From NCBI GenBank assembly GCA_021325455.1, contig JAJPHD010000013.1, forward strand, positions 1 through 64,000: a stretch of 64,000 nucleotides of DNA. The letters are read 5' to 3'. Source of the DNA: Actinomycetota bacterium. GTDB taxonomy: Bacteria; Actinomycetota; Acidimicrobiia; Acidimicrobiales; JAJPHD01. How positions within the stretch are numbered: the first letter of the stretch is position 1; every line of letters starts with the position of its first letter. The notes under the pieces were generated by a model that was not told where the DNA came from, searched no databases, and worked only from the letters and a program-made list of their open reading frames with translations. The translations under genes and the position numbers were made by a program. Shown here piece by piece: positions 7,602 to 35,007 of the stretch.

Positions 7602-7746
7602 GGGCTTCTCTCAACCGGCAATGGTAGGGGTGACCTGCCACTCCGTTCCATGCGGGCGCCCCCGGCCGGAGGCGGCCCCGGCGCCGGCCACTCCTGGTGA
7701 GGGCCCGACCCCTGCAGCCCCGGCCCCGGGGCTAACCTCGGCTGCG

Positions 7747-8688
7747 GTGGGGCTGAGGCGGGTGGCAGGCATCCTCGGGCGCCTTCTGGTGCTGGCAGGG
7801 GTGGTGGTCCTCCTGTTCGTGGCCTACCAGCTGTGGGGAACGGGGCTGGCGGAGGCCAAGAGCCAACAGGCTCTCCGCCGCCAGCTGACCCATGAGCTGC
7901 GCCGCCCAGCCGCCGCTCGGGCCCCCTCCGCCCCCTCCGCCACATCTGCCCCCACCTCCACCACCCCCGACCCCGCTCCCCCGCCCCCCCAGGGCCACGC
8001 CGTGGCCATCATCCGCATCCCCAAGATCCTGGTCAACAAGGCCGTGGTCCAGGGGGTGGCTGAGCAGGACCTGCGCATGGGGCCAGGGCACTACCCGAGC
8101 ACCCCCATGCCGGGCCAGCCGGGCAACTCGGCCATCGCCGGTCACCGGACCACCTATGGCGCCCCCTTCTTCCGGCTCAACGAGCTGGTGCGGGGGGACG
8201 TCATCTACGTCACCACCCGCCAGGGCCGCTTCGAGTACAAGGTCCTGAGGTCCTTGGTCGTATCGCCTGACGACCTGGCCGTCCTCGACCGCACCCGGCG
8301 GCCCGAGCTCACCCTCACCACCTGCAACCCCCGCTACAGCGCGGCCCAACGCCTGGTCGTCCAGGCCCTGCTGGTGGGCCACCCCGCCCCTCCCCCCCCC
8401 ATGGCGGCGCCGGCGCCGGGCCAGCAGGCCACCTCGGGCGGGCGCGACAACCCCACCCTGGCCGGTGGCCTGGCCGGGGGGACGGCCAGCTTCGTGCCCT
8501 CCCTCGAATGGGGCCTGCTGCTCCTGGCCGCCTTCTGCGCCACCTGGCTCCTCGGCCACTACTGGCGGCTCCGCCGCCATAGCCGGGCCGGGCAGTGGGT
8601 CACCTGGGTGGCGGGCACGCCGGTCTGCCTCGCCATCCTGTTCTTCTTCTTCCAGCAGGTCAGCCTGCTCCTGCCTGCCTCGTTCTGA
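7747..8688 (+). CDS. Class E-like sortase with additional C-terminal TM region
   Basis: N-terminal TM, AIAGHRTTYGAPFF, TLTTCNPRYSAAQRLVV; in-frame GTG at 7747 chosen over ORF start 7345. Confidence 0.85.
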   Translation: MGLRRVAGILGRLLVLAGVVVLLFVAYQLWGTGLAEAKSQQALRRQLTHELRRPAAARAPSAPSATSAPTSTTPDPAPPPPQGHAVAIIRIPKILVNKAVVQGVAEQDLRMGPGHYPSTPMPGQPGNSAIAGHRTTYGAPFFRLNELVRGDVIYVTTRQGRFEYKVLRSLVVSPDDLAVLDRTRRPELTLTTCNPRYSAAQRLVVQALLVGHPAPPPPMAAPAPGQQATSGGRDNPTLAGGLAGGTASFVPSLEWGLLLLAAFCATWLLGHYWRLRRHSRAGQWVTWVAGTPVCLAILFFFFQQVSLLLPASF

Positions 8689-8709
8689 CCGGGCCCCGCC
8701 AGGCTCGGC

Positions 8710-10185
8710 TCAGCCCCGCACCGCCTCCTCGCCCCGCACCAGGCGCAGGTCGGCGTCGACCATCATGGCCACCAGCTCGGGCAGGCCCACCTCCCGGCGC
8801 CAGCCCAGGATGGCCTCCGCCCGGGACGGGTCACCGACCAGCACGTCCACCTCCGCCGGGCGGATGTAGCGCTCGTCCACGATCACGTGGTCACGCCACT
8901 CCAGGCCCACGTGCCCGAAGGCCAGCTCGCAGAAGTCCCTCACCGAGTGGGTCCTTCCCGTGGCCATCACGTAGTCCGACGGCTGGTCCTGCTGCAGCAT
9001 CAGCCACATGGCCCGCACGTAGTCGGCGGCGTAGCCCCAGTCCCGCTGGGCCTCCAGGTTGCCGAGGGCCAGGTGGCGGTCCAGGCCGGCGACGATCCTC
9101 GCCACCCCGTGGCTGATCTTGCGGGTGACGAACTCGAGGCCCCGGCGGGGCGAGTTGTGCACCACCACCAGGCCCACCCCGGCGGCGAAGCGGCCCGACT
9201 CCGTTTCCAGGTCGCACATCCAGCCCCGGTAGGGCCGGCGCTCCACGGAGAAGACCTGGCCGGGGGCCTCTGCCCCCTCCAACGGTCCCCGGCGCCCGGC
9301 ATCCCCCCCTCCCCCCCGGGCCCGGGCGAGCCCCTCCGGGCCGACCAGGGCCGGCTCGGGTCGGGGGGACAGGCGCAGTCGGTCCCCGGCCCTCACGGCC
9401 TCGGCCGGTCGCTCCCCCGAGGCCAGGATGACGACGTGCTCCGGGGTGCACTCGATGGCCGCCCCCCGGGCGCGGAGGCTGACCGACTCCCCCTCGTGCC
9501 AGTAGGTGGAGCGGGCCGTCACGGGCGTCCAGCCGTCGCCGTCCCACACCTCGAGGGGCTCGGCTGATGACCGGGCCGCCTCGCCGATGGGCACGATGTC
9601 GACGCAGCCATCCCGGCGCACGACCACGGGCGTGGCCGGGGGCACGCTCTCGTGGTTGAACGAGATGCCCGATGAGGCGTGCAGCCCGTAGCTCTCCCGG
9701 TAGTTGACCGTGATCCAGTGGCCATAGACCTTGGCCACGCCGTAGGGGCTCCGGGGGTAGAAAGGGGTGGTCTCCCTCTGGGGCACCTCCTGGACCTTGC
9801 CGAACATCTCCGACGAGCTGGCCTGGTAGAAGCGGATCTCGGGGTCGACGACCCGGATGGCGTCGAGCATCCTGGTGACACCGAGGGCCGTGGTCTCCCC
9901 GGTCAGAACGGGCTGGCTCCAGGAGGTCTGCACGAAGGACTGGGCGGCGAGGTTGTAGACCTCGGTGGGCCGGTTCTCCCGCAGCACGTTGATCATCGAC
10001 ACCTCGTCAAGCAGGTCGCCCGTGACGAGCCTCAGGCGGTCCTGTATGTGCGCGATGCGCTCGAAGTTGACGGTGCTGCTCCGGCGCAGCATGCCGACCA
10101 CCTCGTAGCCCTGCTCGAGGAGGAACTCGGCAAGATAGGAGCCGTCCTGGCCCGTGATGCCGGTGATGAGGGCACGCCGCCGCAT
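8710..10185 (-). CDS. gmd: GDP-mannose 4,6-dehydratase, intein-containing precursor
   Basis: [71 protein letters not shown] motif split by the insert. Confidence 0.95.
9154..9648 (-). other. Predicted mini-intein (165 aa) within GDP-mannose 4,6-dehydratase
   Basis: Insert [14 protein letters not shown]...CTPEHVVIL...[26 protein letters not shown] between FNHE and SPRRG; Ser1, TxxH block B, terminal HN, +1 Ser. Confidence 0.9.
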
Positions 10186-25340: not shown

Positions 25341-26644
25341 CCGGCACCTGGGCCAACTGGGCCGGGAACCAGAGGGCCAGCGGCATGACGGTCGTCCACC
25401 CCCGGGGCCCCGAGGAGATCGCCCGGGTGGTGAGGAGGGCGGCGGAGGAGGGCCGGCGGGTCAAGGTGGCCGGCTCGGGGCACTCCTTCACCGGTATCGC
25501 CGTGCCCGTGGACGTGCTCGTGGTCCTGGACCGCCACGCCGGCGTGGTGGCCCTGGACCGGAGGACGGGCCTGGTCACGGTGGAGGCCGGCATGACCCTC
25601 GGCCGGCTGAGCGCGGTGCTGGCCGAGGCGGGGCTGTCGCTCACCAACCTGGGCGACATCGACGCCCAGACGGTGGCCGGCGCCATGGCGACGGGCACCC
25701 ACGGGACCGGCGAGCGCTACGGGGGGCTGGCCACCCAGGTCCGGGGGCTGCAGATGGTGCTAGCCGACGGATCGGTGCTGGACTGCGAGGCCGAGGTGCT
25801 CCGGGCCGCCCGGGTGAGCCTGGGCGCCCTGGGGGTGGTCTCCACCGTGACCCTCCAGGCCGAGCCCCTCTTCCCCATGCGGGCCGAGGAGGGCCCCATG
25901 GGGCTCTCGGAGCTGCTGGACCGCTTCGACGAGCTGGCCGGCTCCGTGGACCATTTCGAGGCCTACTGGTTCCCGCACACGCAGCGGGCGCTGGTCAAGC
26001 GCAATACCCGCCTGCCCCCCGACGCCGCCCTGGACCGGCTCCCCCGGTGGCGGGAGTGGGTGGACGACGAGCTGCTGGCCAACACGGTCTTCGGCTGGGT
26101 GCAGGCCCTGGGTCGGCGCTTCCCGTCCACCGTGCGGCCCCTGGCCCAGGTATCGGCCCGGGGCCTGGCGCCCCGGACCTTCACCGACTGGTCCCACCGG
26201 GTCTTCACCTCGCCAAGGCGCGTCCGGTTCAAGGAGATGGAGTACGCCCTGGCCCGGGAGGGCTTCGTCCCCGTGCTGCGGGAGCTGGTGGAGGCCATCG
26301 GGCGCTCGGACCTGCGCATCAGCTTCCCCGTGGAGCTGAGGGTGGCCCCCGCTGACGACATCCCGCTATCCACCGCCAGCGGCCGGGACTCCGCCTACGT
26401 GGCGGTGCACGTGGACCACGCCACCCCCCACCGGGACTACTTCGACCTGGTCGAGTCGGTGCTGGCCGGAGCGGGGGGGCGGCCCCACTGGGGAAAGCTC
26501 CACAGCTTGGACGCCGAGTCCCTCCGGCCCCGCTACGACGGGTTCGACGGCTTCGTGGCCCTCCGGGACCGGCTGGACCCCTGCGGGCGGTTCACGAACC
26601 CCTACCTGGACCGGGTGCTCGGGCCGCCCGGGTCGGCGGCTTGA
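25337..26644 (+). CDS. D-arabinono-1,4-lactone oxidase/aldonolactone oxidase family FAD enzyme
   Basis: VKVAGSGHSFTGIAVP, AGAMATGTHGTGERYGGLATQV, HWGKLH. Confidence 0.92.
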   Translation: MTGTWANWAGNQRASGMTVVHPRGPEEIARVVRRAAEEGRRVKVAGSGHSFTGIAVPVDVLVVLDRHAGVVALDRRTGLVTVEAGMTLGRLSAVLAEAGLSLTNLGDIDAQTVAGAMATGTHGTGERYGGLATQVRGLQMVLADGSVLDCEAEVLRAARVSLGALGVVSTVTLQAEPLFPMRAEEGPMGLSELLDRFDELAGSVDHFEAYWFPHTQRALVKRNTRLPPDAALDRLPRWREWVDDELLANTVFGWVQALGRRFPSTVRPLAQVSARGLAPRTFTDWSHRVFTSPRRVRFKEMEYALAREGFVPVLRELVEAIGRSDLRISFPVELRVAPADDIPLSTASGRDSAYVAVHVDHATPHRDYFDLVESVLAGAGGRPHWGKLHSLDAESLRPRYDGFDGFVALRDRLDPCGRFTNPYLDRVLGPPGSAA

Positions 26645-27275
26645 AGCGGGAGCGCTCCTTCTCGGCCGAGGCCCGGAAGCGGCAGCCGGCCAGGTGGTCG
26701 TTCACGACCCCCAGGGCCTGCATGGCCGCGTAGGCCGTGGTCGGGCCCACGAACCTGAACCCCCTCCGGCGCAGCTCGGCCGAGAGGGCCTTCGACTCGG
26801 CCGTGGAGGAGGGGACCTCGGAGAAGGACCCTGGCGCCGGCCGGGCCCGGGGAGGCTCGTACGCCCACAGCAGGCCTCCCAGGGACAGTCCCTCCTCCCA
26901 CAGGGCCAGGGTGGCGCGGGCATTGGTCAGCGCCGCCTCGATCTTGCCCCGGTGGCGCACGATGCCCGGGTCCGACAGCAGCCGCTCCAGGTCCTGGTCC
27001 CCGAAGGCGGCCAGGGAGGCGGGGTCGAAGGAGGCGAAGGCCTTCCTGAAGGCCGGGCGCTTGCGCAGGATGGTGAGCCAGGACAGACCGGCCTGGAACC
27101 CCTCCAGGCACAGCTTCTCCAGCACCCGGGCCTCTTCTCCCACTGGCCTCCCCCACTCGCGGTCGTGGTAGGAGCGGTACTCGGGGGGGGAGTCGCCCCA
27201 GCGGCAGCGGGGGACGCCGTCGTCGCCGACGGCGAGGTCGGCAGGGAGGCCGGCAGTACCGCCCGGGTGTGCCAC
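26592..27275 (-). CDS. tag: DNA-3-methyladenine glycosylase I
   Basis: RCRWGDSPPEYRSYHDREWGRPV, CLEGFQAGLSWLTILRKR, FRFVGPTTAYAAMQALGVVNDH. Confidence 0.95.
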   Translation of the reverse strand: MAHPGGTAGLPADLAVGDDGVPRCRWGDSPPEYRSYHDREWGRPVGEEARVLEKLCLEGFQAGLSWLTILRKRPAFRKAFASFDPASLAAFGDQDLERLLSDPGIVRHRGKIEAALTNARATLALWEEGLSLGGLLWAYEPPRARPAPGSFSEVPSSTAESKALSAELRRRGFRFVGPTTAYAAMQALGVVNDHLAGCRFRASAEKERSRFKPPTRAARAPGPGRGS

Positions 27276-27279
27276 CTCC

Positions 27280-29367
27280 TCAGCGTAAGGCGGCCGCCAC
27301 GGCCAGGACGGCGACCAGGGCCACCAGCATGTAGGCCATGTACGCCTCCAGGCGCCCGCACTGGAGCCTTCGCACCTGGGCCACCACCCACAGGAGGCCG
27401 AGGCGGGCGGGCCGGTAGAGGTAGGTCTCGACCGGCTCGACCACCCGGGCCTGGTGCTCCAGGTGGGCGTGCCCGGGCCCCGGCGCGGCCCCAGGACCGG
27501 CCCCGGGCGGCGGGGGTGAGAGAGAGGGGGAGGCCGACGACACCAGGGCCCGCCTCGACCCCAGCACGTTGCCGAGCACGTGGCGGGCGACGTTGGCGTA
27601 GCCGAAGGCGCTGTAGCTGTCCGGTCCGCTCACCCCCCCCGTGGCCGAGCGCCAGGCCGGGACCCGCCGCACCCGGAGGAACCGGCCCCGGGACAGTGCC
27701 ATGGTGGCAAGGGTCACGACCACGAACCCGACGGGCAGGGCCACGAAGGCCCATGAGGGGGAGAGGATCGAGAACCCCTTGAAGACGGGCTGGAGGACCC
27801 AGGGCGACTTGAGGCTCTGGTCCACCAGGCCGACGGGGACCACCGGGCCCAGCCCCCGGGCCACGTAGCGGATGACGTAGGGAGCCCCGGCGGCCAGGCC
27901 CAGGCACGAGGCCGCCAGGAGGACCAGGCCGGCCCGGCCCAGGAGCCCTCCTTCGCCGGCCACCGGGGGGCGGGATCGCCCCCGGGGGCCGTCCCCACCG
28001 GAGCTCCCGAGCACCCCCAGCCCGACCAGCCGGGCGAAGGTGAGGGCGGCCACGCCGGCGGTGAGGGCCACCAGAGCCCCGCCGGCAGCCATGGACAGCC
28101 GCACCGCCAGGGAGTGCACCCGGAACTGCTGCATGAGGGCCTCCAGGACGAACCACTCGGACACGAAGCCCATCGTGGGCGGCAGGCCGGCCAGGGTCAG
28201 AGCCGAGGCGGTGAACGCGGCCGAGCTCCAGGGGTGGGTCCGCCACAGGCCCGAGAGGTGCTCCAGGCGGGAGCTCCCCCAGTCGGCCTCCATGTTGCTG
28301 GCCGCGGCGAACAGGCCCGACTTGGCCACCCCATGGGCGATGGCCTGGAGGGTGGCCGCCAGCAACCCCACCGCCACCAGGCCCGCGTGGTGGGTCGACG
28401 CCCCCGCCAGGGCCACCCCGTAGCCGACCAGGATCACGCCCCCGTTCTCCACGCTGGAGTAGGCGATGACCCGGTCCAGGTCGGACTGGACGGCGGCAAA
28501 GACCATCCCCAGCAGGGCCGTCAGCCCGCCCATGACCAGCACCAGGCAGGCCAGCCACACCGGGGGAGGTCCGAGGAGGCCGAGGAACCGCCACAGGCCG
28601 TAGAAGCCGGCGTTGACGGCCACCCCGGCCAGGGCCGCCCTGACCGGGCCGGGCGCCACGGGGTAGCCAGGGGGCATCCAGACCTGGAAGGGGACCAGAC
28701 CCACCTTGGCCCCGAACCCGCCCACGATGAGGGCGTAGGCGGCGGCCTCCACCCCGCCAGCGGGCAGGGCGTGCCAGGAGCCGAAGGCCAGCGAGTGGGT
28801 CTGGCCGGCGAGGAGCAGGAAGCCGAGCAGCAGCAGGGCTCCTCCCCCCTTCCCGATCCCCAGAGCGGCCCAGCTGGCCACTGGCTGGCTGGCCCGGGCC
28901 CGGGTCACCGCCATCAGCACGTAGAAGGCGACGGTCATCGCCTCCCAGGCGAAGAGGAAGGTGAAGGCGTCGCCGGCCACGATGACCAGAGCCACCGACC
29001 CCAGCAGGAGGGCGTAGCCGGCGCCCGCCCCCCTCCCCTGGACACGGCGTTGGGGCCCCGCCCAGCCGGCGGCCACGGCCGAGACCAGCACCCCGAGACC
29101 CGAGGTCAAGGTGAGGAACAGCCCGGCCAGGTGGTCCAGGCGGAGCGAGGTGCGTCCCAGGCCGAGAAGGTTCCCGAGGTCCACCGACTCCGCCGGGCCC
29201 ACCACCGAGAGGACCCCGGCGGCCAGGAGGGCGCAGCTCCCGGCCAGGGCGGCCAGGTAGGGAAGGGGCCTGACCCAGCGCCGCGCCGTCCCCCAGACGT
29301 GGTCGATGGCCGCCCCCAGGGCCAGCACGGCCAGGCCCACGACGAGGAGGGCTTCGCGGGGCGTCAC
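27280..29367 (-). CDS. HyfB/NuoL-like antiporter-type membrane subunit
   Basis: DAFTFLFAWEAMTVAFYVLM; SDLDRVIAYSSVENGGVILVGYG; start GTG 29367. Confidence 0.88.
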   Translation of the reverse strand: MTPREALLVVGLAVLALGAAIDHVWGTARRWVRPLPYLAALAGSCALLAAGVLSVVGPAESVDLGNLLGLGRTSLRLDHLAGLFLTLTSGLGVLVSAVAAGWAGPQRRVQGRGAGAGYALLLGSVALVIVAGDAFTFLFAWEAMTVAFYVLMAVTRARASQPVASWAALGIGKGGGALLLLGFLLLAGQTHSLAFGSWHALPAGGVEAAAYALIVGGFGAKVGLVPFQVWMPPGYPVAPGPVRAALAGVAVNAGFYGLWRFLGLLGPPPVWLACLVLVMGGLTALLGMVFAAVQSDLDRVIAYSSVENGGVILVGYGVALAGASTHHAGLVAVGLLAATLQAIAHGVAKSGLFAAASNMEADWGSSRLEHLSGLWRTHPWSSAAFTASALTLAGLPPTMGFVSEWFVLEALMQQFRVHSLAVRLSMAAGGALVALTAGVAALTFARLVGLGVLGSSGGDGPRGRSRPPVAGEGGLLGRAGLVLLAASCLGLAAGAPYVIRYVARGLGPVVPVGLVDQSLKSPWVLQPVFKGFSILSPSWAFVALPVGFVVVTLATMALSRGRFLRVRRVPAWRSATGGVSGPDSYSAFGYANVARHVLGNVLGSRRALVSSASPSLSPPPPGAGPGAAPGPGHAHLEHQARVVEPVETYLYRPARLGLLWVVAQVRRLQCGRLEAYMAYMLVALVAVLAVAAALR

Positions 29368-30209
29368 GCCCCGCCTCCCGAGGGCAGCAGGCCGACGGCG
29401 AGCAGGATGCCGTGCAGCAGGCTGAACGGGCTGGGCGGCGAGCCCGGCACCCAAACGTCCACGGGCACCAGGTCCCCCACTCCTCCCCTGGTGGCGTACG
29501 TGGGGTGCACCAGCCCGCCGCTCACGGCGTCGGTCCCGGCCGCCACCACCACCTTGGGATCGGGCATGGCCTCCCACGTCCGGCGCAGCGGCCCCGCCAT
29601 GCCCGCCGCCCCGGCCCCCGTCACGAGCAGCAGGTCGGCGTGGCGGGGGGTGGCGGTGAAGAAGATGCCCAGGCGCTGGACGTCGTACACCGGGTTGGTG
29701 AGGGCGGCCACCTCCCATTCCTCGGAGCCGTCGGAGCCGGCATCCACGTGGCGCACGTGGATGGAGCGCCGCAGGGACCTGACCCGGCGGCCCAGCTCGG
29801 AGCGGACCTTCCCCAGCGCCTCCTCGTCGTCCTCCCCCGGAGGGACCACCAGGGCCTGCCGGGAGACGCTGGCCGTCTCGTGGTCGGGCCCGAACCGGAA
29901 CAGCTCGGGGTGGCGGGAGGTGCAGCGTCCGCACAGGATGCAGCGGCCCCGATCCAGGCGGAGCCGGCCTCCTTCCTCGCTGATGGCTCCGGTCGGGCAC
30001 ACCTCCGCCACCCCCTGGGGGGGGCTGGCCCCCTCCGCGACCGACACCGCACCCATCCATCCCGGTCCGTAGCCATCGGGGCGGCGGGGGTAGGCGGTGG
30101 TGACGATCCCTTCCCGCAGGCCGCGCAGCACCCACATGTGGGCCTGGCCCGGGATGTGGCGGAACGGCTCCAGCGACCGCCGCACCCTGTCCGGGACCCC
30201 CCTACCCAT
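29364..30209 (-). CDS. NuoB/HycG-like small subunit with N-terminal ferredoxin-like domain; proximal-cluster cysteines absent
   Basis: CPTGAISEEGG...CILCGRC; NPVYDVQRLGIFFTATPRHADLLLVTG; MPDPKVVVAAGTDAVSGG; VPGSPPSP. Confidence 0.88.
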   Translation of the reverse strand: MGRGVPDRVRRSLEPFRHIPGQAHMWVLRGLREGIVTTAYPRRPDGYGPGWMGAVSVAEGASPPQGVAEVCPTGAISEEGGRLRLDRGRCILCGRCTSRHPELFRFGPDHETASVSRQALVVPPGEDDEEALGKVRSELGRRVRSLRRSIHVRHVDAGSDGSEEWEVAALTNPVYDVQRLGIFFTATPRHADLLLVTGAGAAGMAGPLRRTWEAMPDPKVVVAAGTDAVSGGLVHPTYATRGGVGDLVPVDVWVPGSPPSPFSLLHGILLAVGLLPSGGGA

Positions 30210-31708
30210 CACCCGGCCACCCCGGCCACCGACAGCCCGAAGCTGGCTTCTATGAACACGAAGTCCGTGTAGATGTCCCCCCGGAAGGCCTGGGCGAAGA
30301 GGGCCAGGTTGTGGAAGGCCGGGCACCTCGGCCTGGCCGCCCGGAGGCGGCCGTCCTCCACCTCCACGAGGTAGAGCAGCTCGCCCTGGGGGGCCTCGGC
30401 CCAGCCCAGGGCGGTGCCGTCAGGAGGGTCGAACTGCGCCCGCCAGGGCCCGTCCCCGGCCCCCGCCAGCCCCTCCAGGGCCTGGCGGGCCAGGGAGAAG
30501 GAGCGAGCCACCTCCGCCACCCGCACCTCCTGGCGGGCCAGGGCGTCCCCCCTCTCCCGGGGCTCGACGGCCTGGGCGCCCAGGCGGGGATAGGCGCCGT
30601 AGGGGCGGGCCACCCTGAGGTCCTCGGCCAGCCCGGATGCCCGCCCTATGGGCCCGACGGCGCCGTGGGCCCCGGCCACCTCTGGGGGCAGCACACCGGT
30701 CCCCCGCAGCCGGTCCAGGAAGGAAGGGGTCTCCATCAAGAGCCTGATGTCGGCCGTGGCCCCCTTGTCGATCCGGGCCAGCTCGGCCAGGGCCTGGGCC
30801 GCCCCCAGGGAGGGCGGGCCCGAGACCCCCCCCGGCACGACCACCCCCCGGCCGAAGCGGTGCCCGCACAGGCGGGCCTGCAGGCGCAGCACCCGTTCCT
30901 TGTGGAGGCTCAGGCGGGCGTAGGCCACGGCCTGGCCCGCCCCCTCGGTGTGGCGGACCATGGAGTCCAGGTGGTTGGCCACCCTCTCCAGCTCGGCGTG
31001 CAGCACCCGGGAGAGGCCGGCCCGGGGCGGGACCTCGACCCCGGCCAGGGCCTCCAGCGCCTGGCAGTAGGCGCTGGCCTGGGCCACCGAGGTGGTCCCC
31101 TCCACCCTCTCCGCCAGGAGGACCCCGTCCCCGACAGACAGGCCACAGAAGCGCCGGGAGAGGCCCCGGTGCTTGTGGTACACGCGCGTGCGCAGGTGCG
31201 GTATCTCCTCCCCCGGCGTCTCGACCAGGTACTGGATGGCCTCGAAGACCCCGGAGCGCACCGGGCCGTAGGGGATGGTGAACAGCCCCTCGCCGCTCAC
31301 ATGGCCGGGCAGGGGCTCCTCGCTGGGGTCGAGGCAGCCGACGTCGGCCGCCGTCCCCGGGCGGGGCCGGGGCGTCCCCGGGGCCAGGGGCAGCACCAGG
31401 GGGTCGAGGCGGGGGTGCCCGAGGGGCCGGACCCCGTAGAGGTCGTGCAGCTCCCGCTCGTACCAGGTGGCCCCGGGCGTGGTAGGGGTGAGGGCCTGGT
31501 AGGCACCCACCTCGGGAGCCAGGACCTCCTCCTCCAGCCCATAGCGGCCCGGCCAGGCCAGGACGGCCCGGAGGCAGAGGGACCCGTCCGGCCGTCCGGT
31601 GGGCAGCAGGGCGGCGAAGCGGGCGCCGGCCCGGACGGCACCCGCCACCCGGGAGGCCAGCTCCTCGCCCACCAGCCCACCCCCCACCGGGGCAGCGGCC
31701 TCCCTCAT
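30209..31708 (-). CDS. HycE/NuoCD-like large subunit lacking [NiFe]-ligating cysteines
   Basis: YERELHDLYGVRPLGHPRLDPL (NuoC-like); VSGEGLFTIPYGPVRSGVFEAIQY; GVLLAERVEGTTSVAQASAYCQALE (NuoD/HycE-like). Confidence 0.9.
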   Translation of the reverse strand: MREAAAPVGGGLVGEELASRVAGAVRAGARFAALLPTGRPDGSLCLRAVLAWPGRYGLEEEVLAPEVGAYQALTPTTPGATWYERELHDLYGVRPLGHPRLDPLVLPLAPGTPRPRPGTAADVGCLDPSEEPLPGHVSGEGLFTIPYGPVRSGVFEAIQYLVETPGEEIPHLRTRVYHKHRGLSRRFCGLSVGDGVLLAERVEGTTSVAQASAYCQALEALAGVEVPPRAGLSRVLHAELERVANHLDSMVRHTEGAGQAVAYARLSLHKERVLRLQARLCGHRFGRGVVVPGGVSGPPSLGAAQALAELARIDKGATADIRLLMETPSFLDRLRGTGVLPPEVAGAHGAVGPIGRASGLAEDLRVARPYGAYPRLGAQAVEPRERGDALARQEVRVAEVARSFSLARQALEGLAGAGDGPWRAQFDPPDGTALGWAEAPQGELLYLVEVEDGRLRAARPRCPAFHNLALFAQAFRGDIYTDFVFIEASFGLSVAGVAG

Positions 31709-33168
31709 GGCCCCACTCCCAGCTCGCTCGCCGCCCGGGAAAGGACGTGGCTCAGCGCCGAGGGGGGATGGACCCCGAGGATGGCCAGAGCCACCAGGCC
31801 GGCTGCCATGGCGGCCACCATCCAGGCGCTCGTCTCCCCCCTGGCAACGGTGGCGCCGGCGGTGGAGCCACCGGCGGGCGTCGGCGAGGCCATGGTCCTG
31901 GTGGCCCACCAGCTGAGCCCCAGGAAGGCCAGGACCACCAGGCCCACCAGCACCGCCACCACGCCGTCGCTCGGGACCGAGAGCCCGCCGGCCACGATCA
32001 GGAACTCCGAGCGGAAGATGCCGAACGGCGGTGCCGCCGACAGGGCCAGCACGGCCAGCACCAGCATGGGCCCCGTCCAGGGGAGCACGCCGATCCCCCC
32101 CCGAATAAGGCGCAGGTCCTTGGTCCCCAGCTTGGCGAGCACGGACCCGGCGCCGAAGAAGGCCGTCCCCTTGGCGGCGCCGTGGGCCAGGACCTGGAGG
32201 AGGACCCCGACCACGGCCAGAGGGGCGGCGAAGCTCATGCCTATGGCCATGATCCCCATGTGCTCGATGCTGGAGTAGGCAAGGAGGCGCTTGAGGTCCC
32301 GCTGGCTCACCACGTACAAGGCGGCCAGGGCGAGGGAGGTGATGCCGAACCCGAGGAGCACCTCTCGGGGGAAGGCGTAGCCCACGGCGCGCCCGGTTAT
32401 CTGGAAGTAGCGCAGGATGGCGTAGAACGAGACGGCCAGCAATGCCCCCGAGAGCAGAGCGGAGACCGGGGTGGGGGCCTCGGAGTGGGCGTCGGGCAGC
32501 CAGGTGTGCACCGGCACCAGGCCCATCTTGGTCCCGAAGCCCAGCACGGCCAGGAGGTAGGCGAGCCGGACGAGACCGGGGGGCAGCCGATGGGCGACGG
32601 AAAGGAGAGGCCCTATGGCCATGTGGTAGGCGGGGCCGAGGGCGCTGGCCCCTGCGGCGTACATGGCCACCGTGCCGAACAGAGCTATCCCCAGCCCCAT
32701 GGAGGCGATGATCAGGTACTTCCAGGACGCCTCCGCCGCCCCGTCGGTGTCGTCCAGGGCCACGAGCAGGGCCGACACCACGCTGGCGATCTCGAGGGCG
32801 GCCCAGATCTCCACCAGGCTGTTGACGACGGGCGTCACGGCCATGGCCCAGCAGAACAGGTTCAGCCCTGCGTAGAGGCGCCGGGAGTAGCGGGGGTCGT
32901 GCCGCCGGCCCACGTAACCCATGGCGAACACCGCCGTCAGGGCGTAGAGGAAGGCCGTGGTGAGCAGGAACACCAACGAGAGGTCATCGGCCCGCAACCA
33001 ACCACCGAGCGCCATCTGGCTTCTCCCCCCGGCTCTTCCCACCAGGGCGAGGGAGAGGCCGAAGGTGGCTGCCCCGGCTACGACCGTGGCCCCCTGGGCC
33101 AGGCGGGTAGGGCCCCACCACGCCACCACGGCGGCCACGAGGGGGACGACCAGTATCGCCAGGAGCAT
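31705..33168 (-). CDS. HyfF/NuoN-like antiporter-type membrane subunit
   Basis: KMGLVPVHTWLPDAHSEAPTPVSALLSG; LKRLLAYSSIEHMGIMAIG. Confidence 0.9.
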   Translation of the reverse strand: MLLAILVVPLVAAVVAWWGPTRLAQGATVVAGAATFGLSLALVGRAGGRSQMALGGWLRADDLSLVFLLTTAFLYALTAVFAMGYVGRRHDPRYSRRLYAGLNLFCWAMAVTPVVNSLVEIWAALEIASVVSALLVALDDTDGAAEASWKYLIIASMGLGIALFGTVAMYAAGASALGPAYHMAIGPLLSVAHRLPPGLVRLAYLLAVLGFGTKMGLVPVHTWLPDAHSEAPTPVSALLSGALLAVSFYAILRYFQITGRAVGYAFPREVLLGFGITSLALAALYVVSQRDLKRLLAYSSIEHMGIMAIGMSFAAPLAVVGVLLQVLAHGAAKGTAFFGAGSVLAKLGTKDLRLIRGGIGVLPWTGPMLVLAVLALSAAPPFGIFRSEFLIVAGGLSVPSDGVVAVLVGLVVLAFLGLSWWATRTMASPTPAGGSTAGATVARGETSAWMVAAMAAGLVALAILGVHPPSALSHVLSRAASELGVGP

Positions 33169-33170
33169 CC

Positions 33171-33860
33171 CTAGCCCCTCAGCCTGTCCAGCACTTCGGT
33201 GGAGAGGGTCCCCGTGCGGCCGTGATGGACCCGCACCAGCACGCCGAAGAAGACCACGGCCACCAGCAGGTCGAAGAAGAACGTGACCTCGGCCAGCAGA
33301 GGCAGCCGGGAGGCCAGCACCAGGCTGGCGACGGACACCCCGTTCTCCAGGGCGAAGAAGCCGATGGCCTGGGACACCACGTCAGCGCGCAGGATGACGA
33401 GGAGGAAGGCCACGAGCACGGCCGCCATGGCCAGGCCGAGGGCCGCCACCGGAAGGGTCGAGGTCACGGGAACCGCCTCCAGGATGAAGAGCCCGAAGGC
33501 CGCCACGGCCAAGGCGATGAGGGTCATGCTGGCCACCTTGAGCCGTTCGCTGCCCGCCACCTCCGTCTCCACCCCGGCCAGGAGGCGAAGGACGACGGCA
33601 GGGATCACCACGACCTTGATGAGGAACGAGATGCCCGCCACGGCGTAGGCCTCGGGGACATGGCGGAGAGCGGCCAGCAGCACGGCCAGGCCCACCACGC
33701 AAAGGGACTGGAACGCATAGAGCCGTACCTGGGTGCGGGCCAGGGCGGAGCGGAGCATGGCGAACTCGGCCAGCACCACGAGCAGGGCGATGGCATCGGC
33801 CACCCCCGAGAAGGCCGGGGGGGCAGCCAGGGTGGAGACCGCCAGGAGGGCTGGACCCAT
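33171..33860 (-). CDS. HyfE/NuoK-like membrane subunit
   Basis: AYAVAGISFLIKVVVIPAVVLRLL; SQAIGFFALENGVSVASLV; start ATG 33860. Confidence 0.85.
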   Translation of the reverse strand: MGPALLAVSTLAAPPAFSGVADAIALLVVLAEFAMLRSALARTQVRLYAFQSLCVVGLAVLLAALRHVPEAYAVAGISFLIKVVVIPAVVLRLLAGVETEVAGSERLKVASMTLIALAVAAFGLFILEAVPVTSTLPVAALGLAMAAVLVAFLLVILRADVVSQAIGFFALENGVSVASLVLASRLPLLAEVTFFFDLLVAVVFFGVLVRVHHGRTGTLSTEVLDRLRG

Positions 33861-34816
33861 CAGGCGTGCCCCACGTAGAGGATGAGGATGGCCAGGACGG
33901 AGAGCAGGAAGGCGGCGGCCATGAACTCGGTGATCTTGAACAGGCGCAGCTTGGAGAACGAGTTGTCGATGAGGGCGAAGAGGAAGCCCACACCCAGGGC
34001 CTTGCCGAAGAAGATGGGGATGGCGAGCAGCACCGACGAGGCGTCCCGGGTGCTGGACAAGCCCCAGGGGGCGGCGAAGACGTTGATGAGCAGCACGTAG
34101 AGGATCACCTGCTTCATGGCCGATCCCCACTTGAGGAGGGCCATGGCCGCTCCGGAGTGCTCCAGGGTCCGGGCCTCGTCGATCATGCCGAACTCGAGGG
34201 TGCTGGAGTGGGTCTCCACGGGGATGCGGGCCGTGTCGGACAGCACGGCCAGGAAGAAGGCGAAGGCGGCCAGGATGTGGGAGGGGCGCACCGCCTGGCC
34301 CAGCGAGGCCCGGGCCGTGGCCGCCTCGGCGTAGGGGAGGTCCGTCGTGGTGATGATCGCCACCACGAAGGTCACGAAGAGGATGGTGGGCTCGATCAGG
34401 GCGGCGAAGGTCATGGCCCGGCTGCTGCCCAGCTGGGCGTAGGGGCCGCCGGTCTCGGCCGCCGCCACCGAGATCGAGAAGGCGGCCAGGGCGAGGAAGA
34501 AGGCACCACCCAGGATGTCCCCCATGTAGCCGAGCGGGAGGCCGAAGGTGGTGAGCTCGGGGATGAGGAGGGGGACGATCAGGTAGCAGGTGAAGGCCAC
34601 CACCGGGGCGGCCAGGAACACCCAGCTGGCCTGCTCGGGGACCAGGGTCTCCTTGCTGAAGAGCTTGGCCAGGTCATAGTACGGCTGCAGGATGCGGGGC
34701 CCACGCCGGCCCTGCAGACGCGCCTCCATGTGGGAGATGGCTCCGGAGAGGAAGGGGGCGAGGCCCACCACCATCAGGTCCTGGACCAGCTGGATCGTGT
34801 AGACAGACAGCTCCAC
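33860..34816 (-). CDS. HycD/HyfC/NuoH-like membrane subunit
   Basis: EARLQGRRGPRILQPYYDLAKLFSKE; DTARIPVETHSSTLEFGMIDEARTLEHSG. Confidence 0.93.
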   Translation of the reverse strand: MELSVYTIQLVQDLMVVGLAPFLSGAISHMEARLQGRRGPRILQPYYDLAKLFSKETLVPEQASWVFLAAPVVAFTCYLIVPLLIPELTTFGLPLGYMGDILGGAFFLALAAFSISVAAAETGGPYAQLGSSRAMTFAALIEPTILFVTFVVAIITTTDLPYAEAATARASLGQAVRPSHILAAFAFFLAVLSDTARIPVETHSSTLEFGMIDEARTLEHSGAAMALLKWGSAMKQVILYVLLINVFAAPWGLSSTRDASSVLLAIPIFFGKALGVGFLFALIDNSFSKLRLFKITEFMAAAFLLSVLAILILYVGHA

Positions 34817-35007
34817 CCACGCCTCCCGCTAAGGGAACACCGACTTGGGTAGAGGCCATCAGCACGCTGGCGGTTCGGGCAGAACCCACCGGAGCCTCAT
34901 CCGGTCGGGCCAGCATACCGAGGCGGGACCGGGCCGTGCGACATCGCCCCCCGGTGGCCACCTCCGGTCGTTGGCCCGGGGCCGCCCCGGGTTAGGGTCC
35001 AGGCCCC

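Follow-up and report, generated by a model that had tools for sequence, protein, structure and literature searches.

Ehr complexes (Coppi 2005, Marreiros 2013; described in PMC6349859 and PMC10284858) are six-subunit homologs of group 4 hydrogenases without [NiFe] ligands, and their operons encode two antiporter-like subunits together with NuoH-, HyfE-, NuoB- and NuoCD-like subunits. Genes of similar appearance have been described in the literature on fluoride. Weinberg 2010 reported the crcB motif before 'formate hydrogen lyase' genes, and DNA-repair genes were also named among fluoride-riboswitch genes (PMC2864571). A 2024 review counts 'formate hydrogen lyase', tied to fermentation, among the commonest fluoride-riboswitch-associated enzymes, ranks Na+/H+ antiporters directly behind exporters in frequency among riboswitch-associated classes, describes enolase, inorganic diphosphatase and CrcB as fluoride-stress genes, and states that HF entry acidifies the cytoplasm (PMC11139923). 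Our literature searches, which did not cover the primary Ehr papers, returned no paper linking Ehr to fluoride.

We analyzed a stretch of 64,000 nucleotides (the window; contig JAJPHD010000013.1) from an Acidimicrobiales genome of the Actinomycetota. The window carries a six-gene operon on the minus strand with the content of an Ehr operon, listed here from the first gene to the last:

33860-34816 (-): HycD/NuoH-like membrane subunit, first gene of the operon, GTG start (PF00146, E 2e-33)
33171-33860 (-): HyfE-like membrane subunit (NF008556, hydrogenase 4 membrane subunit, E 7e-20, below the curated cut-off)
31705-33168 (-): HyfF-like antiporter subunit (PF00361)
30209-31708 (-): large subunit, NuoC-NuoD/HycE-like, without [NiFe] and quinone ligands
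29364-30209 (-): small subunit, ferredoxin-like and NuoB/HycG-like domains (PF01058 and Fer4 families)
27280-29367 (-): HyfB-like antiporter subunit, GTG start (NF005086, hydrogenase 4 subunit B, E 3e-111, below the curated cut-off)

All six genes were open and every junction was coupled by a stop/start overlap or a gap of a few bases; the large-subunit ORF (499 aa, ATG start) overlaps each neighbor by 1-4 nt. The profile matches and ORF junctions thus agree with a preliminary description of this DNA, which had placed HycD-, HyfE-, HyfF- and HyfB-like genes in a single coupled minus-strand operon; the sixth gene, whose NuoB-like product carries a fused ferredoxin domain, was absent from that description. 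The same gene set in the order D-E-F-L-S-B was found in relatives wherever contigs permit. Canonical NuoD and NuoB are encoded elsewhere in the genome. A DNA-3-methyladenine glycosylase-like gene, identified by eye (26592-27275, -), follows the hyfB-like gene within a few bases, and its co-transcription with the operon is probable.

Alignments with MbhL (E 1e-36), HycE (E 1.5e-34) and Nqo4/NuoD (E 2e-31) covered most of the large subunit. Its predicted fold had a pLDDT of 90, and the nearest solved structure was HycE (7z0s_E, TM 0.89); by alignment and prediction, the NuoC/D-HycE fold is therefore kept and is closest to HycE. In a joint alignment, the four [NiFe] Cys columns of E. coli HycE read E203, T206, S493 and G496, i.e., the CxxC ... 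CxxC ligands of group 4 [NiFe] hydrogenases are not present:

31091-31102 (-): position of the first [NiFe] Cys pair, codons E203 to T206 (joint alignment with HycE)
30221-30232 (-): position of the second [NiFe] Cys pair, codons S493 to G496 (joint alignment with HycE)

This is what the preliminary description had proposed, namely a large subunit that lost all four Cys and retained its fold. The motif LAERVEGTTSVAQ starts at 31079 as given there and ends at 31117 rather than 31108. No conserved Cys was found anywhere in the large subunit among 36 relatives, so that conserved Cys pairs elsewhere in the subunit, which that description had named as an objection to its proposal, were not seen. 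Meanwhile, approximately 80 positions were invariant among these 36 relatives, which come from several actinobacterial families, and E203 was invariant in 79/79. The complex I quinone ligands were also replaced in the alignment (Nqo4 H38 by F155 and Y87 by G204); a quinone reductase was rejected because these ligands are absent.

These results bear on the name under which such genes are known. A functional [NiFe] hydrogenase or formate hydrogenlyase, as given in annotations and in reviews of fluoride regulons (PMC11139923, PMC2864571), would be in line with the HycD/HyfB/HyfE/HyfF homology. However, the four [NiFe] Cys were missing here and in every riboswitch-associated member examined, as in all examined Ehr large subunits of both tree branches, and the annotated loci read contained no formate dehydrogenase, maturation protease or Hyp genes. 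An active enzyme of this kind was rejected because its [NiFe] ligands are absent, and we regard it as extremely improbable. The 'formate hydrogen lyase' of the literature and the operons studied here share RF01734 directly before hyc/hyf-like genes and are probably the same genes; whereas the literature describes a formate-oxidizing enzyme, every member checked here lacked the [NiFe] ligands. Since these ligands are absent, the genes encode no hydrogenase, at least in the members read here. The name 'formate hydrogenlyase' thus seems misapplied in fluoride regulons, where these genes probably encode an ion-moving complex for fluoride stress.

The small subunit consists of an N-terminal ferredoxin-like domain followed by a NuoB/HycG-like domain, and its best PDB relatives were HycG and MbhJ. 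The CxxC, C and PGC of these two proteins correspond to D160xxE163, D227 and PGS257. All four ligands of the proximal/N2 [4Fe-4S] cluster, as present in group 4 [NiFe] hydrogenases, are gone from the small subunit (D, E, D, S):

29721-29732 (-): D160 to E163, replacing the CxxC of the proximal/N2 [4Fe-4S] cluster
29529-29531 (-): D227, replacing the third N2 Cys
29439-29441 (-): S257, replacing the fourth N2 Cys (PGSPP versus PGCPP)
29922-29999 (-): C71, C90, C93 and C96, ligands of the one remaining [4Fe-4S] cluster (CP and CxxCxxC)

A similarity search showed the same N2 ligand replacement in all close relatives in the same order. Across 80 named loci and the window, position 227 was D or E in 81/81, position 163 was E or D in 79/81, and the four ferredoxin Cys were kept in 81/81. 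The 80-locus set was drawn with search patterns that include D160 and S257, so that the invariance of these two residues is in part a product of the selection; the patterns did not include D227, the ferredoxin Cys or the large-subunit residues. Strict D-E-D-S conservation as the mark of a metal site was weakened as a candidate, as Mycobacterium branderi has N/D/D/A and some members have A or V at 163 and A or N at 257. The Cys of a second cluster were seen in the small subunits of more distant relatives, and, judging from its residues, only one ferredoxin-type cluster can remain in the present complex. Because the N2 and second-cluster Cys are lost, the usual wire of two ferredoxin clusters, N2 and an active site is cut to one isolated cluster. 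One further locus (L097) has a small subunit with no ferredoxin domain, D/V/D/D at the N2 positions and no clear riboswitch; by sequence, such a complex may be devoid of metal clusters.

Charged residues of the proton path are retained in the four membrane subunits. E126, K214 and E388 of the HyfF-like subunit, which align with NuoM E144, K234 and E407, were invariant in 90/90 relatives, and E142, K221 and E404 of the HyfB-like subunit were invariant in 100/100; the Mrp-type TM5 Glu, TM7 Lys and TM12 Glu/Lys were therefore present in both antiporter subunits. A decaying Ehr or hydrogenase operon without function would explain the loss of many cofactor ligands. However, the six open genes, the coupled junctions, the constant gene set and order, the invariant large-subunit positions and the 100% retention of pump residues leave this reading very unlikely, and a pseudogene was rejected because it is contradicted by such strong conservation.

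Among the known systems, complex I and Mrp Na+/H+ antiporters share the NuoH/NuoL/NuoM-type subunits with conserved Glu/Lys/Glu. Unlike respiratory complex I, the present complex has no quinone ligands, no N2 and no NADH module. It keeps a hydrophilic arm, whereas Mrp has none; therefore, we did not file it as Mrp. In E. coli formate hydrogenlyase-1, HycE (7z0s_E) and HycG (7z0s_G) provide the nearest solved folds of the hydrophilic subunits, but [NiFe], the proximal cluster and the FdhH/HycB partners are missing here.

The region upstream of the operon was compared with the fluoride riboswitch family. At the gathering threshold, Rfam gave no match across the window. With a permissive threshold, RF01734 matched at 34843-34899 (-), 26 nt upstream of the hycD-like start, with 17.6 bits (E 0.03) against a gathering score of 34; although below the cut-off, this was the top RF01734 match of the whole 2.95 Mb genome.

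34843-34913 (-): fluoride-riboswitch-like aptamer of the RF01734 type, P1 CCGG/CCGG, pseudoknot GAGGC/GCCUC

Model R1, built from 18 Rfam-confirmed riboswitches (six other loci only), scored 27.9 bits at this leader (E 4e-6). The aptamer is divergent and its P3 is weak. Among the named actinobacterial loci, 61 had 150 nt or more of upstream sequence; model R1 matched just before the first gene in 59 of these, and the match reached 17 bits or more in 53. The pseudoknot, which is not part of model R1, forms in 94% of cells, and 4/5 of its pairs change on both sides. In addition, RF01734 scored above gathering at the operon start in Amycolatopsis, Streptomyces, Streptantibioticus, Actinacidiphila, M. 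branderi, Burkholderia and others; in M. branderi, it stands before a NUDIX gene that precedes the operon. With shuffles that preserve base composition only, the 3' strand of the aptamer paired downstream better than 95% of shuffles in 35/61 leaders. In the window, this pairing ranked only 11/100 and the leader folding z was -1.0; therefore, we claim no switching mechanism.

We then read the distribution of the complex from a large-subunit tree (quick search, SH-aLRT support). The 75 Ehr rows were separate from HycE/HyfG (SH-aLRT 99), the hydrogenase references being from E. coli only, so that the clustering with bona fide [NiFe] enzymes which the preliminary description had considered was not seen. 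Together with the absent [NiFe] Cys and the operon content, this position supports its assignment to the Ehr-type relatives of group 4 hydrogenases. All riboswitch-associated Ehr fell into one clade (64 rows, support 99), and riboswitch-free Ehr formed a separate branch (11 rows, support 87). The members without N2 were one clade inside the riboswitch clade (47 rows, support 100); this form was found in Acidimicrobiales MAGs, Streptomyces, Streptantibioticus, Actinacidiphila, Amycolatopsis, Pseudonocardiaceae, Acidothermus, Propionibacteriaceae and Streptosporangiaceae, as well as on a plasmid of M. branderi. In addition to the [NiFe] ligands missing from the described Ehr complexes, this N2-less clade has lost the N2/proximal cluster and one ferredoxin cluster; it differs from them further in a ferredoxin fusion in the small subunit, the order D-E-F-L-S-B and a fluoride riboswitch. 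Ehr operons of order B-D-E-F-L-S or S-B-D-E-F-L had no riboswitch in the loci read. We take S-B-D-E-F-L to be the gene order of M. tuberculosis Rv0082-Rv0087, the locus to which the operon had been likened at first. The likeness holds only for gene content: S-B-D-E-F-L operons (L252, L253), which have no [NiFe] Cys, keep the CxxC of N2 intact, and relatives of this order (L110/L111) fall in the riboswitch-free branch. A closer mycobacterial relative was found on the M. branderi plasmid. Within the riboswitch clade, N2 was intact in L096, L098-L101 and Burkholderia, which suggests that the ancestral complex was redox-active. Two loci sister to the N2-less clade (L102/L103) showed partial N2 loss (PGS versus PGC, third Cys shifted) and no ferredoxin domain, and still stand behind a fluoride riboswitch; they are a possible intermediate.

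The best explanation, to which we give a probability of about 50%, is a redox-uncoupled, fluoride-induced ion-translocating complex. We infer that fluoride would, through the leader riboswitch, switch on a six-subunit Ehr complex of the complex I/Mrp type in this strain. Its large subunit can bind neither [NiFe] nor, to judge from the ligand positions of complex I, quinone, and in its small subunit the N2/proximal cluster and one ferredoxin cluster of the original two are lost. With these ligands and clusters gone, no known route takes electrons to the coupling cavity. The complex would translocate protons or cations, possibly as F-/H+, largely or wholly without redox chemistry, and this would offset the acidification and the loss of proton-motive force caused by HF entry. 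Because the N2 ligands are lost and the leader resembles a fluoride riboswitch, we no longer start from the assumption of an unknown electron donor and acceptor. The lone [4Fe-4S] cluster may be structural or a redox sensor; its strict retention, odd if no electrons are handled, argues for a remaining redox or sensing role.

That retention (81/81) also agrees with a fluoride-induced redox-driven pump, in which electrons would enter at the single ferredoxin-like cluster, reach some acceptor or cofactor, e.g., a metal in the D160/E163/D227 pocket, and drive the antiporter modules in the manner of other Ehr or Mbx complexes. Close relatives in the riboswitch clade keep N2 and both ferredoxin clusters, and the former ligand positions are usually acidic, both in agreement with such a pump. 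However, the usual wire neighbors of the remaining cluster, ferredoxin cluster I and N2, are both gone, the large subunit offers no conserved Cys, and no conserved oxidoreductase partner was found beside the operon when neighbors were probed with fluoride-gene references only. We therefore consider a redox-driven pump unlikely.

Fluoride-related genes accompany the complex in several relatives; these neighbors and the distribution of CrcB among genomes speak for the fluoride-induced complex proposed above. Plasmid-borne relatives adjoin enolase, inorganic diphosphatase, DUF190 and CrcB genes. CrcB-like genes occurred in about 26/132 loci and enolase in 14/132, where approximately one enolase would be expected by chance (an estimate from one copy per 3 Mb). 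In the window's genome (96% complete), no CrcB was found and the CLC-F signature (GREGT/V) was absent from all five CLC proteins; another genome (G609) had neither CrcB nor any CLC. In the order, CrcB was present in 9/26 genomes with the N2-less complex versus 275/371 other genomes, an anti-correlation (Fisher p 6e-5; 9e-5 for genomes at least 90% complete) that is uncorrected for kinship and drawn mostly from incomplete MAGs. This pattern would fit a complex that itself exports fluoride, e.g., by F-/H+ exchange, in place of the missing CrcB/CLC-F. However, 9 of the 26 carriers also have CrcB, and the antiporter-like subunits in this superfamily are known to move cations rather than halides; no subunit of the complex matched PF02537 or a CLC family. 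Fluoride export by the complex is thus a doubtful reading. Its wider version appears improbable: a complex I-like machine would then be the riboswitch-controlled F-/H+ exporter that many Actinomycetota have in place of CrcB/CLC-F, and the former N2 pocket (Asp/Glu/Asp/Ser) would serve as an ion- or metal-fluoride-sensing or gating site.

If the redox-uncoupled translocation is true, the complex would possibly be a third kind of bacterial fluoride defense. For the orphan Ehr complexes, or at least for one branch of them, fluoride stress is a directly testable function, and an experimental test is feasible because cultured Amycolatopsis and Streptomyces carry the complex. A complex that works without N2, [NiFe] and quinone would offer a natural test case for how antiporter modules of the complex I type can be driven or gated without electron transfer.

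Three additional observations were made among the relatives. An Alicyclobacillus plasmid (L203) carries an orphan Ehr-type large-subunit gene (7612-9314) with its own fluoride riboswitch, and no other Ehr subunit is annotated within 8 kb of it. Plasmid pMESIL01 of Allomeiothermus silvanus bears two Ehr operon copies (L210, L211) with T/D/E/S at the N2 positions; N2 was lost independently there, and the copies have no riboswitch and an ArsR-type regulator nearby. Finally, in six loci (L087, L093, L095, L138, L155, L181) the N2-less operon has a more distant Ehr operon as its neighbor. Most of these second operons possess a fluoride riboswitch of their own, and the small subunit read from one of them (L095) has the N2 Cys intact.
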